A DNA stretch of 64,000 nucleotides, taken from NCBI GenBank assembly GCA_030141605.1, contig JAQGDQ010000522.1, positions 1 to 64,000 on the forward strand. Reading direction: 5' to 3'. Position numbers and translations under genes: made by a program. Shown one piece after another: positions 7,601 to 22,600 of the stretch (the first letter of the stretch is position 1; each line of letters opens with the position of its first letter). The DNA comes from Tubiluchus corallicola (taxonomy: Eukaryota; Priapulida; Priapulimorpha; Priapulimorphida; Tubiluchidae). Below the pieces are notes generated by a model that was not told the DNA's origin, searched no databases, and saw only the letters and a list, made by a program, of their open reading frames with translations.

Positions 7601-10600
7601 AAGAAAATTCTTCATAATTTCCAATTACATTTTTGCTTGCTTAGTGAAGTGTGAGCTGCGAATGCTCTGACTATTTGTTAATTTTTTGATTTAAATATGA
7701 TCTAAAACGCTTAAAATTTTTTACTTAAAGACAGAACGATAAAATGACTGCGCTTAACGGTGATCGTGGGAGTTTAAATTTTCAAGTTACTGATGCAATC
7801 TCTACATGCAATAAGACAAAATTTCAAGACGGATTTTTAAGCTTTGTTGACGAAGCGTTTTCTTGTAACGTTCCAGGGTTAATAATAGCTATATATTTTA
7901 CTGCTAACAGATGGCAGTGCACAGTTACAAGTTGTACCAAACACTAACGATAAATCAACGTACGCCAATGAATCTAAACAAGTTTGCGTGGTATGATTTT
8001 CCGATAATCATCGAATCGATAAGCATCCCTAGTGGTCAACAAGCATATAACTGTGCAAATCTATTTACAAGCTGGGTGTCTAGATGCACGCCCGATTTTC
8101 CGGAAATGTTCAAAATAAACTAAAAAGAATCGTGCAAGGTATGCTTAAAGATATGCAAAAAAACTTACAGTTGGTCAACTGGCTTGTCTTCTGTTTGTAC
8201 ATCTTCTGCAATGAAAGAAACAACAAAAAATTAAAAGAGGTAAAAATTTTTGAAGAAAAAAATCGACGATAATGTACTAAAGCCACATAGCATGCTTCTA
8301 CAAAAGATACGGTAGTTGCCGGTATCTATTATACCGTACATTTGATGAAATTGTTGTACTAAAACACAAAAGTTCAAAAAAATCCAGTGAAAAGATTTTC
8401 CTAACATTACATGAAGACGTTGAACAAATGCATGATTACGCACAACGTAAAGCAATGTTCTCCGGAGCAATTAATCTTTAAAAATAACAATGGAGATTTC
8501 ACGCTTCGCTGAAACACGCAAACTATTAGTGATTACATTCATATAATGTAAGTAATAGACAAACCTGGAGATTATAACGTGCTGATGTATGGCATACATG
8601 CAAATAGACGTGATGACCTCAACAATGGATTCCACATAAACTTCTGATGTAATCTTGCTGAACATGCAAATGGATGCGGTGACCTCAACAATGGTACAAG
8701 ACCTTCGTATGATTATTGGCATAAACAATGACTTCTGATGCAATCATGCTGAACATGCACATGGATGTGGTGACCTCAACAATGGATTCCAGAATTATAT
8801 CTTGACATAAACTTCTGATGCAATCATGCTGAACATGCAAATGGATGTGGTGACCTCAACAATAGATTCCAAAATTTCATCTTGAAATAAACTTCTGATG
8901 CAATCATTCTGAACATGCAAATGGATGTGACATCCTCAACAATTGATGCAAATGGCTGTGACGACCAGAACAACGGATGCTACGCTTCTATTCATTGCTG
9001 GTGTAAACATCAATTCTGGTGTACAAGATGCCTTTTTGTAATTATGTGGACCACGTACAAGTGCAATTGATTTGCAACTTCAAGCAAGGAAATCAGGCAT
9101 CTATGACATTACATGTGTGCGTGGTCGTGCATGCGATTAAATTACGATGATCTTGCAACTGGATATAGTTCAGATAATGCCGATGGTCAGTGGTCAATTG
9201 ACGATGGGTGTCGTTTCTGTGCTTGCCAAGTGATACTGCTCAGCAAATCAGCTCGTATCATTCAAAATTGTAGTTAACAGCTACACCTTGGAACGTTGCG
9301 GGTTCTGACATGGATATATCCATGACTTCAATGGCTAACTTACTAATACGTCAACATATTTAAGGTTTCTGACCGGGCGCTACCACGAAAAATACCGATT
9401 GCAGTTACACCAAACTGATTAACGCTAGACTTGTTACTACACGTTTGTGCATTAATACTCAAAGGTAAGCAGACTTCGTAACTTACAAAATTTCTAATAC
9501 CGGATTGTAAATGAATAAATGTCAGTTAGTATTAGTTGGCAAAAAAAAAGAATTAATGTGACAGGAAGTAACAAAGCAAATATAAATCGTTTAATTTCAT
9601 CAGGTGATTAAGGTAAATCATGCCCCTCGCTATTCTAAAGAATTGCCATGGGTAAATAACTCAGGTAATTAAATGTCCATAGTCATGTGAGGCCGTAGCT
9701 CCATATCATCAGTAAAGCTGGGTTCACTAATGCTTCCTTGTAGCGTACTACCATCAGTGTCACTCGATCTATCCAGGTCACCCAAACTTTTACACCTGAT
9801 TGCATTATCTTTTAGACCAAAGACGTATTCTTCAGCCCTGTATGCTGTTGGATGCAGCATCATAATGGGGAGTGGAGCATGCTTCACTTCTGCTTCAACT
9901 TCGGTAAACTCTCCCACGCTGCTGTAATCACTCAGATCTTCATCATTTGCTAATGGCGCAAAGAATGCCTTCTCGACCAGTATCGGTTTGCGAATCACCG
10001 TTTCTTCTTCACTGCTGCTATCTGCGAAACCTATTTCATCATCGGTTCCCTCGGCTGCGGGATTCTTAGTAGCGACGACGTCTTCTCCGCCTCTCCCTCT
10101 AGTGGCTTTCAGTTCTTCGGGGTGCAAGACGGGCATGATCTGAATGAAGTCAAAGTGACTGATTCTTGACAAATTTGGATTACTACGAGTCCTGAACCTA
10201 AAATCTCCTCTAGATGGACCCTGAGACACATGCTGCATGCTGAGGTATAACGACTTTTGTTTGTTAAGACTGGAAGGTGAACTTAAACTCACATCATGGG
10301 ACAAAAGCTCTTTCACTTGTAAGTCGTCTTCACTTAGGCTGTCCGATGACGCAGACTCAGGTGATGGCACTTTGCCATGCCTGGATTTTCTAGGTGATTC
10401 TCTGTACCAGTCTACAACTTCAATCTCGTCTATGAATTCTGAAGATTGTGTAATGTGTTTCTCAACAAATGCTACTTCAGCTTCCTGCTTAGTATTCGCA
10501 TCTTTTGTTACATATCCCCCATTTCCATTCACGGCATGTTTGTTCCATCCAACTATTTTTTTAAACATTTTCCCAATACCTGTCTTTTGCTTAGTCTTCT

Positions 10601-19600: not shown

Positions 19601-22600
19601 CAACTGACAATGATGATTAAGCAAAGTATTTTGATGAGTAACAAATTCGTTTGAATTGATTTCTTTAACTGTTTTAGGTATTACCTGCTGGTTGAAGGTT
19701 TCTCACATTGTACAATGAAAACAGCAGGGACCGCCAGAATATCTGGTTTTTGTCTTAATTACAATAGATTTCGTTTAAAATACATCCTTCTATTCGCTTT
19801 ATTTATTCTTCTATGATCAATTTCAAGGTAAAGCATTACAATGTTAAATTAAACGTCACAAATGTTAATAACTAAACTGCTTAAAAACAGCAAATGAGCA
19901 GCTTAAATTTTCAGTAAACTATCTTGCTAGCCATGCGTGTGAATAAAACTAAAACTTCGTGCAAATTTACGGGAAAATCAACTGATCTTTCAACAAACTG
20001 CTTTTTTGTCATGCATCATAATAAATCACACTGTTTTTGCCGTGCCGATTCATTCCTTTCTCGCACGGACATCTTCCTCTTCGTAGTTGGATTAAACTTC
20101 ACTTACTATGAAACAGCGGTACGAGAGACGAGATTAAACACGTCCGTCAATGCACGTTGAGTTTAACCTACCTGGAAGCAAGACTGGGGTTTTGGTTACC
20201 GCCTCTCCGGCTCGGTTGATCGCCAAGCACTTGTACTCTGCCTGATTCTCCGGAGCAAATTCAGATATGACCAACACACAGGTCTCCTCATCTGGACGGG
20301 ACACCTGACAGAGCAAAAATGATTATTAGCAGAAAAATCTTAGCGATTAATGGCACTAAATCTATTTCTTCAATTGTCAACTGCCTACGAACAAACATTA
20401 AAACGTAATCGCAATACGAAAGCGATAAATTGTTCGGAGGAATTACTAGAGGCACCAAATAGAAATCAAAAATTTTAAGAATATGAAACAAACGAAGGCA
20501 AGTAAACAACAAGTAAACAACAACTTGTTTACAACAATGCAAGTAAATTATGTTCTGCTTTCAGATATGTTTGCCAGTCATCAAGAAAGAAAAATTAGAT
20601 CAAATGAAATCTTTAGTGATGCTTGAAAGAAAATTAGATCAAATGAAATCTTTAGTGATGCTTGAAAGAAAATTAGATCAAATGAAATCTTTAGTGATGC
20701 TTGAAAGAAAATTAGATCAAATGAAATCTTTAGTGATGCTTGAAAAAAAATTAGATCAAATGAAATCTTTAGTGATCCTTGAAAGAAAATTAGATCAAAT
20801 GAAATCTTTAGTGATGCTTGAAAGAAAATTTCACACTTAAACCTATTTTTTACCGGGGCAGTCAAACCTCTTCATACTGCCTACTTTGGGACAGCAAAAA
20901 AAAACTGGTGTTAAGCGAATTTGGCGTTATAAGAAGGCGCATTAATACATATGTATCCATGCAAATACACGCATTTTGTTTTGCTAAAAATCAGGATCGG
21001 TCTTAAGTTTGGTTGCTAATAAGCTTTTCACAGCTTCGTTGTGCGCATGCGCAGAAGTTAATGGTTAAGTGCACCACGGCAACGCGTCTTAACTACAACC
21101 GTCACACGACGTGCGTAAAGCAAAGCTGTCTGCTGATTCAATTCAGTAACATCAGTTGTTTTACGATCACTTGACTTAATTATACATTAGTCTGTGCGTA
21201 GAGTTAAGGGGGGCATCATAACGAGGTCTTACTGTACTTTCAACCAGTCAAATAGCTATGTTCAGTCAAACCTCGTTAAAACGCACCTCTGCTTTATAAC
21301 GCTAACCTTGCTCAATGCTCAAATTGTTGACGAAACAAAATATCTATATTTACAAAGACGTGTATACGTTAATGCCAAAGTCATTTAATGCCAACTTTTT
21401 TGCATTCCTAAAACAGACGCTATAAAGACGTTTAATCTATTCCACAATCTATTCAGAGGCATTGAAAGTTCAGTTGTCAGACAGCCACGTACAATCAAAG
21501 CCTGTTATAATGCGAAACTCGATTAACCCCAACTTTTTTGCAGTTATGAAGTTGACGGCGTAAAGAAGTTTAGATACTCACCTGATAAACAGTTGAATCG
21601 TGCGGAACCTCCTCATTGTTTACGAACCAAATGACATCGGGAACCGGCTGACCTCTGACCTTGCAGATCAAGGTAGCGGGTTTTCCTTCTTCAACTGTCG
21701 TCGGTAGAAGAGGATGGGTGAACTTTGGTGCTTCGTCAGCTTCTTCAGAAAACAAAACATGTTCCGTCACGTCACGTTCATTTTGATCAGCTACGCTAGT
21801 ATCTTTGTATTACGTAACTTATTGTTTGCTTAATGTTACAGGGTGTCCCATTAATATCTTCCCAGTTTATGATCTGGATGCAAGCGCTAATTGTTAATTT
21901 TCATCCTGATATTCACATCAAAGCTTTTCAATAACTTTATTACTGGTTAAAATGGCTTCAAGCTACCTTCAAGGTAGGCTTCCCTATGGATTAAGTAAAT
22001 GGTGTTCAAAACATCATATTGCAAAGTTTAGAATAGAAATTATGTCTTCATCAAAATCACAATGCTGGTCAATTTTTCTGAGCCAGCTAGTGGTTAGAAA
22101 GGAAGAAAATCACAGGTAAAAAGTCAAAATTTTACAAATGTGTGCTCACATAGCAAAATTGTCCAAAAGTCGGCAATTAAGTTTTTCTAGTTATTCGCAT
22201 ATCTTGAATCTCCATTTCTTGAGGATCATTTTGATACCAAGTTCATTACTCTATGTTATTTCTAAGGCGAGATAATCCACATTGAATGTGAGGTGCAGGC
22301 CATGCAGGAAAAAAATCTTGAGAAAATCGCTGTTAGAGTCAGCCATTGTTTTTTGTTGTGTCTCTACAAAACACTTAGCAACCGTACAAATGTTAATTGC
22401 TATGGACTTTGCAAGAACACACTGAAGTTATGTTTAAATCCAGTAGATGGTTCTTCAAGATGAAGATCAGGGCTTGGCAACAGGAAAACATGAAGCAAAG
22501 TGACAGCGTCTAGGAGCTACAATCGAAGTTTGAAAATAAAAGTTTTTCACAATTGCAGTACTAGTTTCTAGACAGAAAGTGGATACTGGGTTATAAAATG

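Follow-up and report, generated by a model that had tools for sequence, protein, structure and literature searches.

A 64,000-nucleotide window of the priapulid Tubiluchus corallicola genome (GCA_030141605.1, contig JAQGDQ010000522.1, positions 1 to 64,000) appears to carry part of a sallimus/kettin-type titin gene whose 9-kb alternative terminal exon would allow the production of either a short, tailed protein or a long, elastic one. We consider this explanation probable. The exon anatomy, the reading phases, and the coding nature of the exons are established at the level of the DNA, and the gene type is assigned by similarity; use of both splices and the position of the 3′ end are predicted. 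If the exon that the initial annotation designated E25 is spliced to the giant exon E26, the message would end at an ATTAAA hexamer, and the protein would stop after Ig11 plus a 3,002-residue tail that is not Ig-like. If E26 is skipped, E25 would be followed by a microexon of 37 nt, and the protein would go on as the long elastic form. The short form might be anchored near the Z-disc in a kettin-like manner, short of the thick filament.

The gene looks like an invertebrate titin of the sallimus/kettin type, a call that draws on the portion in the window; any upstream Ig-linker repeats and C-terminal Fn3 domains would lie beyond it. I-set Ig domains occur in tandem alongside acidic linkers of PEVK-like character (13 Ig domains in our model; Table 1), and exons 15-17 form the acidic PEVK-like stretch. 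Three pieces of our first model, covering 10 of the 13 Ig domains, match Pfam I-set at E values of 5e-91, 1.6e-69, and 4.1e-40 over 5, 3, and 2 stretches, respectively; Ig6-Ig8 lie outside those pieces and match Varroa Ig domains by BLAST. For Ig3-Ig4, the two top-scoring solved chains are titin. Ig1-Ig4 are collinear with the end of the Varroa titin-like X6 protein (147 of 421 residues identical), which stops 5 residues past its Ig4 equivalent and which, from its domain order, we take to be a kettin. Compared domain by domain, the collinear Varroa domain is the best match for two of these four and the second best for the remaining two. Another Varroa protein (P0017) matches Ig7 together with the non-Ig YVPDSE linker after it, which may serve as a marker of the family. 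It is because Ig1-Ig4 align with the last four Ig domains of one Varroa protein, and Ig7 with its linker matches another, that we favor the sallimus/kettin type. Neither an end of the gene nor a stop past exon 29 was seen within the window.

Table 1. Features of the titin-type gene and its alternative terminal exon in the window (exon phases, in-out, in parentheses).
Feature	Content	Coordinates	Strand	Remark
Exon 1 (0-0)	Ig1 first half	63248..63424	-	
Exon 2 (0-1)	Ig1 second half	61832..61961	-	added by hand; absent from first exon chain
Exon 3 (1-0)	Ig2	60342..60475	-	acceptor shifted by hand from 60437
Exon 4 (0-1)	Ig2	59413..59548	-	
Exon 5 (1-1)	Ig2 end, Ig3 start	58309..58470	-	
Exon 6 (1-1)	Ig3	58012..58200	-	
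Exon 7 (1-0)	Ig4	57410..57567	-	
Exon 8 (0-1)	Ig4 end	56780..56909	-	stop point of Varroa kettin-like protein
Exon 9 (1-1)	linker, Ig5	52761..53153	-	
Exon 10 (1-0)	Ig6	48379..48587	-	alternative acceptor 48551 possible
Exon 11 (0-1)	Ig6	47492..47630	-	
Exon 12 (1-1)	linker with KRKKKKKPK cluster, Ig7 start	47125..47322	-	
Exon 13 (1-1)	Ig7	45811..46017	-	
Exon 14 (1-1)	YVPDSE linker, Ig8	44326..44778	-	
Exon 15 (1-0)	acidic PEVK-like	43059..43102	-	
Exon 16 (0-1)	acidic PEVK-like	42175..42220	-	
Exon 17 (1-1)	acidic PEVK-like	37356..37520	-	
Exon 18 (1-0)	Ig9	33111..33184	-	
Exon 19 (0-1)	Ig9	32497..32701	-	
Exon 20 (1-0)	acidic linker	32219..32340	-	
Exon 21 (0-1)	Ig10	31784..32108	-	
Exon 22 (1-0)	Ig11 first half	21582..21742	-	
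Exon 23 (0-1)	Ig11 second half	20172..20304	-	E25; donor GTAGGT
Alternative terminal exon	3,002 residues and TAA	9669..18676	-	E26
Tail module 1	46 residues (TVEP...MAETLF)	17484..17621	-	
Tail module 2	46 residues	16314..16451	-	
Tail module 3	46 residues	15513..15650	-	
Tail array	14 copies of 18-residue repeat	14571..15326	-	last copy degraded
Tail C-terminal part	1,631 residues, acidic, serine-rich	9672..14564	-	
ATTAAA		9590..9595	-	starts 76 bases from first base of stop codon (73 after codon)
Microexon (1-2)	skip form	8169..8205	-	probable E27 of initial annotation
Exon 26 (2-0)	Ig12 first half	6172..6337	-	
Exon 27 (0-1)	Ig12 second half	5112..5304	-	
Exon 28 (1-2)	Ig13 first half	4018..4183	-	
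Exon 29 (2-0)	Ig13 second half	1453..1642	-	

Scored with generic, hand-entered splice matrices that are not trained on this species, the E25 donor is among the best 0.2% of GT sites and the E26 acceptor (first exon base 18676) among the best 1.8% of 3,648 AG sites. E25 ends in phase 1, E26 accepts phase 1, and the E26 frame stays open for 3,002 residues (split codon included) up to a TAA at 9671-9669. Between 9668 and about 8300, neither AATAAA nor ATTAAA occurs apart from the ATTAAA at 9595-9590; by itself, given the base composition, this hexamer is weak evidence for a 3′ end. The phases, the E26 acceptor, the stop codon, and the ATTAAA had been called in the initial annotation and were located again here; the length of the tail was likewise reproduced, and Pfam finds no Ig domain in E26. 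Coding signal is confined by the exon borders: a signal as high as that of the first 58 codons occurs in 5 of 1,000 non-exon windows and one as high as that of the last 37 codons in none of 1,000, and the signal is absent from the 110 bases ahead of the acceptor (635 of 1,000 as high) and the 110 bases past the stop (672 of 1,000). Because of this confinement, and because modules within the tail are conserved while their silent sites are nearly saturated (see below), the tail is real coding sequence.

These borders also bear on two other accounts of E26. As a single long exon with no Ig domain by Pfam and with no similar stretch in the remainder of the window at an E value of 0.01, it might be a separate single-exon gene nested, in the same orientation, within an intron of the titin-type gene. 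We regard this as unlikely, given that the coding signal already spans the 58 codons between the acceptor and the first ATG and that the frame opens just 25 bases before a good acceptor whose phase is exactly the one supplied by E25. Alternatively, E26, whole or shortened, might be an internal exon that is spliced on to the microexon, in which case there would be no truncated form. Giant internal exons occur in titin genes, an exon chain built without stop modelling picked a phase-1 donor at 9781, and E26 contains 127 phase-1 GT sites (with scores, for example, of 5.3 at 18046, 4.5 at 13969, and 4.0 at 13258). However, the donor at 9781 scores -0.3, where the model's 28 donors range from 0.2 to 8.7, and the 37 codons past it are the strongly coding ones noted above, with the signal ending at the TAA. 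A donor deep inside E26 would waste most of a long coding frame. Overall, an internal exon seems quite unlikely.

The path that skips E26 would run through the microexon (8205-8169; phase 1 to 2), which has an acceptor, a donor, and a coding signal. Among candidates of 9-120 nt in any phase, with an acceptor above -1 and a donor above -0.5, no other one across 50,153 non-exon bases scored as high or higher when the microexon was left out of training. The initial annotation held that the exon after E26, its E27, accepts phase 1. This stands if the splice uses the microexon, which best explains that call, but not if it uses the better acceptor of the Ig12 exon (6337, top 7%), which takes phase 2 and leads to stops when E25 is spliced straight to it. 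A weaker Ig12 acceptor at 6287 (top 32%) would accept phase 1 and could be the exon that was meant. Skipping E26 does preserve one frame, as had been proposed, with 28 exons and 1,614 codons in our final model in place of 30 exons and 1628 codons. These predicted exons give good support to a gene of the titin type that has a giant, alternative terminal exon together with a workable route for skipping it.

The window offers no proof of a single transcript, and a phase match alone is weak evidence because Ig exons of titin-type genes tend to share phases. Perhaps, then, there are two Ig-domain genes, one made up of the upstream exons and E26, with its end at 9669, and another comprising the exons from 8205 onward. 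We give this arrangement little credence, however, since the microexon has the splice sites, the coding signal, and the 1-to-2 phases required to connect E25 with the exon at 6337.

The alternative terminal exon that we propose has a vertebrate parallel. Novex-3 is described as a unique exon of large size, carrying a stop of its own, that is skipped in the main forms and yields a truncated titin (PMC11178842), and a Novex-III exon is reported in elephant shark as well (PMC12241362). Interaction with obscurin is a further trait of the novex-3 isoform. Its conservation, despite being unused in the main titin forms, has been presented as a longstanding mystery, and its resemblance to kettin has been remarked on in print (PMC6098106). 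E26 has in common with novex-3, in sequence layout, a giant alternative terminal exon that carries its own stop and is compatible with skipping. It differs in belonging to another type of titin, in showing no sequence link in the searches made, and in specifying an isoform that is so far a prediction. Of the earlier proposal that this animal has a two-isoform switch equivalent to novex-3, the layout holds up; as to its being notable outside vertebrates, kettin is a precedent for an early-stop isoform.

The parallel with novex-3 is plausible, and homology is unsupported; E26 may be independent in origin or too diverged to tell. True homology, with an exon older than the protostome/deuterostome split, would explain the shared design, a single giant terminal exon within the I-band portion of titin, and a correspondence between sallimus and vertebrate titin has been argued for, in a report whose authors consider the history impossible to settle (PMC12198301). 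We nevertheless find it very unlikely, as no similarity to the tail emerged in our searches, which reach few invertebrates, and as no listing or passage that came up in full-text literature searches describes a giant terminal exon in Drosophila sls. Moreover, an acidic PEVK-like stretch precedes E26, whereas novex-3 comes before the PEVK segment in vertebrate titin. Like that segment, the tail is long, acidic, apparently disordered, and encoded in the I-band portion of a titin gene, but P, E, V, and K amount to only 24-32% of the three parts measured, and the tail ends the protein.

Early-stop isoforms outside vertebrates are already known, and kettin is an example, being described as an early-stop short isoform of sallimus that exists alongside long forms (PMC9886281, PMC11081514). 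The kettins of arthropods and nematodes resemble the present gene in type, with a short N-terminal form produced through an early stop. Kettin stops straight after four contiguous Ig domains, as the Varroa form does after its Ig4 equivalent, whereas E26 follows Ig11. The novelty of the present gene lies in a larger terminal exon, placed seven Ig domains beyond the point of the kettin stop, that adds a 3,002-residue tail with repeats and motifs. A kettin-type stop through read-through past exon 8 (SKE, then a stop) was also considered, and it is uninformative because many exons here hit a stop few codons past the donor. A giant terminal exon in a sallimus-type gene, apart from the kettin stop, would make the conservation of novex-3 testable through its distribution among animals.

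Relatives of the tail were sought in several collections, which reach few invertebrates. There was no match at E values up to 1 among PDB sequences, nor in a protein search of 7,975 candidates that were limited to about 1,650-5,250 aa. Among 240 listed proteins, none of them named novex-3, there were four matches with E values up to 10, the lowest being 4.8. Contig collections of prokaryotes and of viruses gave 17 and 258 pattern-matching stretches, respectively, with none confirmed, and an Rfam search gave no match. The sole Pfam match on the tail, LbH_EIF2B, falls on the perfect 18-residue array and reaches 20 bits, where the cut-off is 54. We regard it as a repeat artefact because the array model has no PDB match at an E value of 0.001 (best 0.071 among the 50 of 159 matches listed, E up to 10) and because the diverged repeats did not fold in their model (pLDDT 30, compared with 67 for the array).

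About 30 of the 18-residue repeats are found in the tail in all. Residues 1-1116 contain 16 diverged 18-mers, where shuffling gives 0.4 on average (at most 2 in 200 shuffles), and 7 AE[ST][LI]F motifs, versus a mean of 0.02 (maximum 1 in 2,000 shuffles); these motifs are paired in the tail, and the 1,614-residue skip form has none. In pairwise comparisons, the three 46-residue modules are identical at 33, 31, and 35 of 46 positions (67-76%), with pS values of 0.79, 0.76, and 0.70 and pN values of 0.17, 0.18, and 0.14. Part of the tail is under constraint at the protein level. In the 18-residue array, pN/pS is 0.69, and there is therefore little constraint.

Perhaps the repeats, the paired motifs, and the acidic, serine-rich end make the tail a scaffold for partners. 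A tentative and rather doubtful extension is that the sallimus-type titins of this lineage make a second short isoform besides kettin, with a scaffold tail whose AE[ST][LI]F motifs act in docking, and that truncation by a giant tail arose independently in protostomes and vertebrates. The tail would also be new non-Ig sarcomeric sequence, and its repeats and motifs could be used as bait for partners.

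The partial titin-type gene on the minus strand of the window encodes 13 Ig domains, as delimited in this analysis. Our model of this gene was derived from a coding and splice-site chain. Exons 2, 3 and 10 were adjusted manually and a doubtful exon was left out, which gives 29 exons. Two forms are predicted. If the 9-kb exon is omitted (the skip form), 28 exons join into 1,614 codons free of any stop. If this giant exon (E26, exon 24) is used, exons 1-24 yield 4,365 residues, and the portion encoded by E26 is referred to here as the tail.

Several features are in accord with the use of E26 as an alternative terminal exon. 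Its acceptor ranks in the top 1.8% among 3,648 AG sites and accepts phase 1, which is the phase of the donor of the preceding exon (E25, carrying the second half of Ig11). The reading frame of E26 spans 3,002 residues and ends at a stop codon beyond which an ATTAAA sequence is present. Coding signal was assessed with a third-order coding model, from whose training the tested stretch was withheld, by comparison with 1,000 non-exon windows. Scores as high as that of the first 58 codons occur in 5 of these windows, and none scores as high as the last 37 codons. The 110 bases upstream of the acceptor and the 110 bases past the stop carry no coding signal by this test (635 and 672 of the 1,000 windows, respectively, score as high). 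E26 is coding right to both of its borders, including the stretch ahead of its first ATG. This pattern favors predicted splicing of E26 to the upstream exons rather than a separate gene.

Coordinates of features in and around the titin-type gene
Feature	Position	Strand	Description
Exon 23 (E25)	20304-20172	minus	donor phase 1
Exon 24 (E26)	18676-9669	minus	first base 18676
Stop codon of E26	9671-9669	minus	
ATTAAA	9595		
Microexon	8205-8169	minus	37 nt; phase 1 to 2
Doubtful exon	50572-50477		
Minisatellite	5400-6017		21 bp, 29 copies; in the intron separating two Ig12 exons
GA microsatellite	24228-24900		673 bp
Dispersed element	722-1380, 22135-22789, 41445-42113, 44981-45756		up to about 670 bases; four non-exonic sites, 82-90% alike
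Inverted pair	25586-26054 and 33696-34164		469 bp, 98% identical
tRNA-like A and B box sequence	about 90-240		noted by eye

The initial annotation held that the exon following E26 also accepts phase 1. This claim had to be checked because the Ig12 exon, when it begins at its better acceptor (6337), takes phase 2, and joining E25 directly to it produces stops. The claim does apply to a predicted microexon that lies between E26 and Ig12, and it would also apply to Ig12 if a weaker acceptor at 6287 were used. The skip path is fit best by the microexon. When this microexon was excluded from training, a scan of 50,153 non-exon bases for candidates of 9-120 nt in any phase yielded no other that scored as high. 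E26 also contains 127 phase-1 GT sites, a few of which are fair donors, with the best scoring 5.3 at 18046. Because fair phase-1 donors do occur inside E26, a shortened, non-terminal version of this exon is conceivable, and some messages may use such a version and then continue onward. Consideration of these internal donors and of the 6287 acceptor left the odds of the various readings unchanged. Both strands of the nearby minisatellite are open, and its minus-strand frame is continuous with that of exon 5304-5112.

Short forms of giant muscle proteins have precedents. Kettin is a short isoform of sallimus (PMC11081514), an early alternative stop has been recorded for an sls isoform (PMC9886281), and novex-3 is a short titin form that is terminated by a large unique exon and is conserved across vertebrates (PMC11178842). 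Another paper compares novex-3, in its nuclear role, to kettin (PMC6098106). E26 is distinct from the kettin stop because it sits seven Ig domains beyond the kettin-type end, which falls after Ig4, where a Varroa titin-like protein stops. The tail of E26 is without a match to anything found in the searches made, including a protein search that covered proteins up to about 5,250 aa. Given this size limit, and because the last protein search scored the Ig region only, a relative of the short form that is already annotated could have gone unnoticed. We found no report of a giant or alternative terminal exon in invertebrate titins in full-text searches that covered few subscription papers.

The tail is rich in repeats. 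An 18-residue repeat is present 16 times in diverged form within residues 1-1116, when scored at a threshold of 20 (shuffle mean 0.4, maximum 2 in 200 shuffles). These copies are followed by 14 tandem ones, the final one degraded. The C-terminal remainder holds 1 copy versus a shuffle mean of 0.4. The tandem array has a pN/pS of 0.69 and looks recently homogenised. There are also three 46-residue modules with pairwise identities of 33/46, 31/46 and 35/46. Their pS values (0.79, 0.76 and 0.70) exceed their pN values (0.17, 0.18 and 0.14), and therefore the protein sequence has been conserved while silent sites have turned over. The tail also carries 7 instances of the motif AE[ST][LI]F versus a shuffle mean of 0.02, and the 1,614-residue skip form has none. 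The final 1,631 residues are acidic, with 11.5% serine. When the tandem array was submitted to single-sequence structure prediction, the resulting repeat model was of intermediate confidence (pLDDT 67, pTM 0.58) and had no match in the PDB at E 0.001. The diverged repeats gave no fold (pLDDT 30). We derive no fold from these predictions.

Other elements are scattered through the window, among them a GA microsatellite and a dispersed element. The tRNA-like sequence is perhaps a SINE, and ARAGORN called no tRNA there. The members of the inverted pair are probably recent copies.
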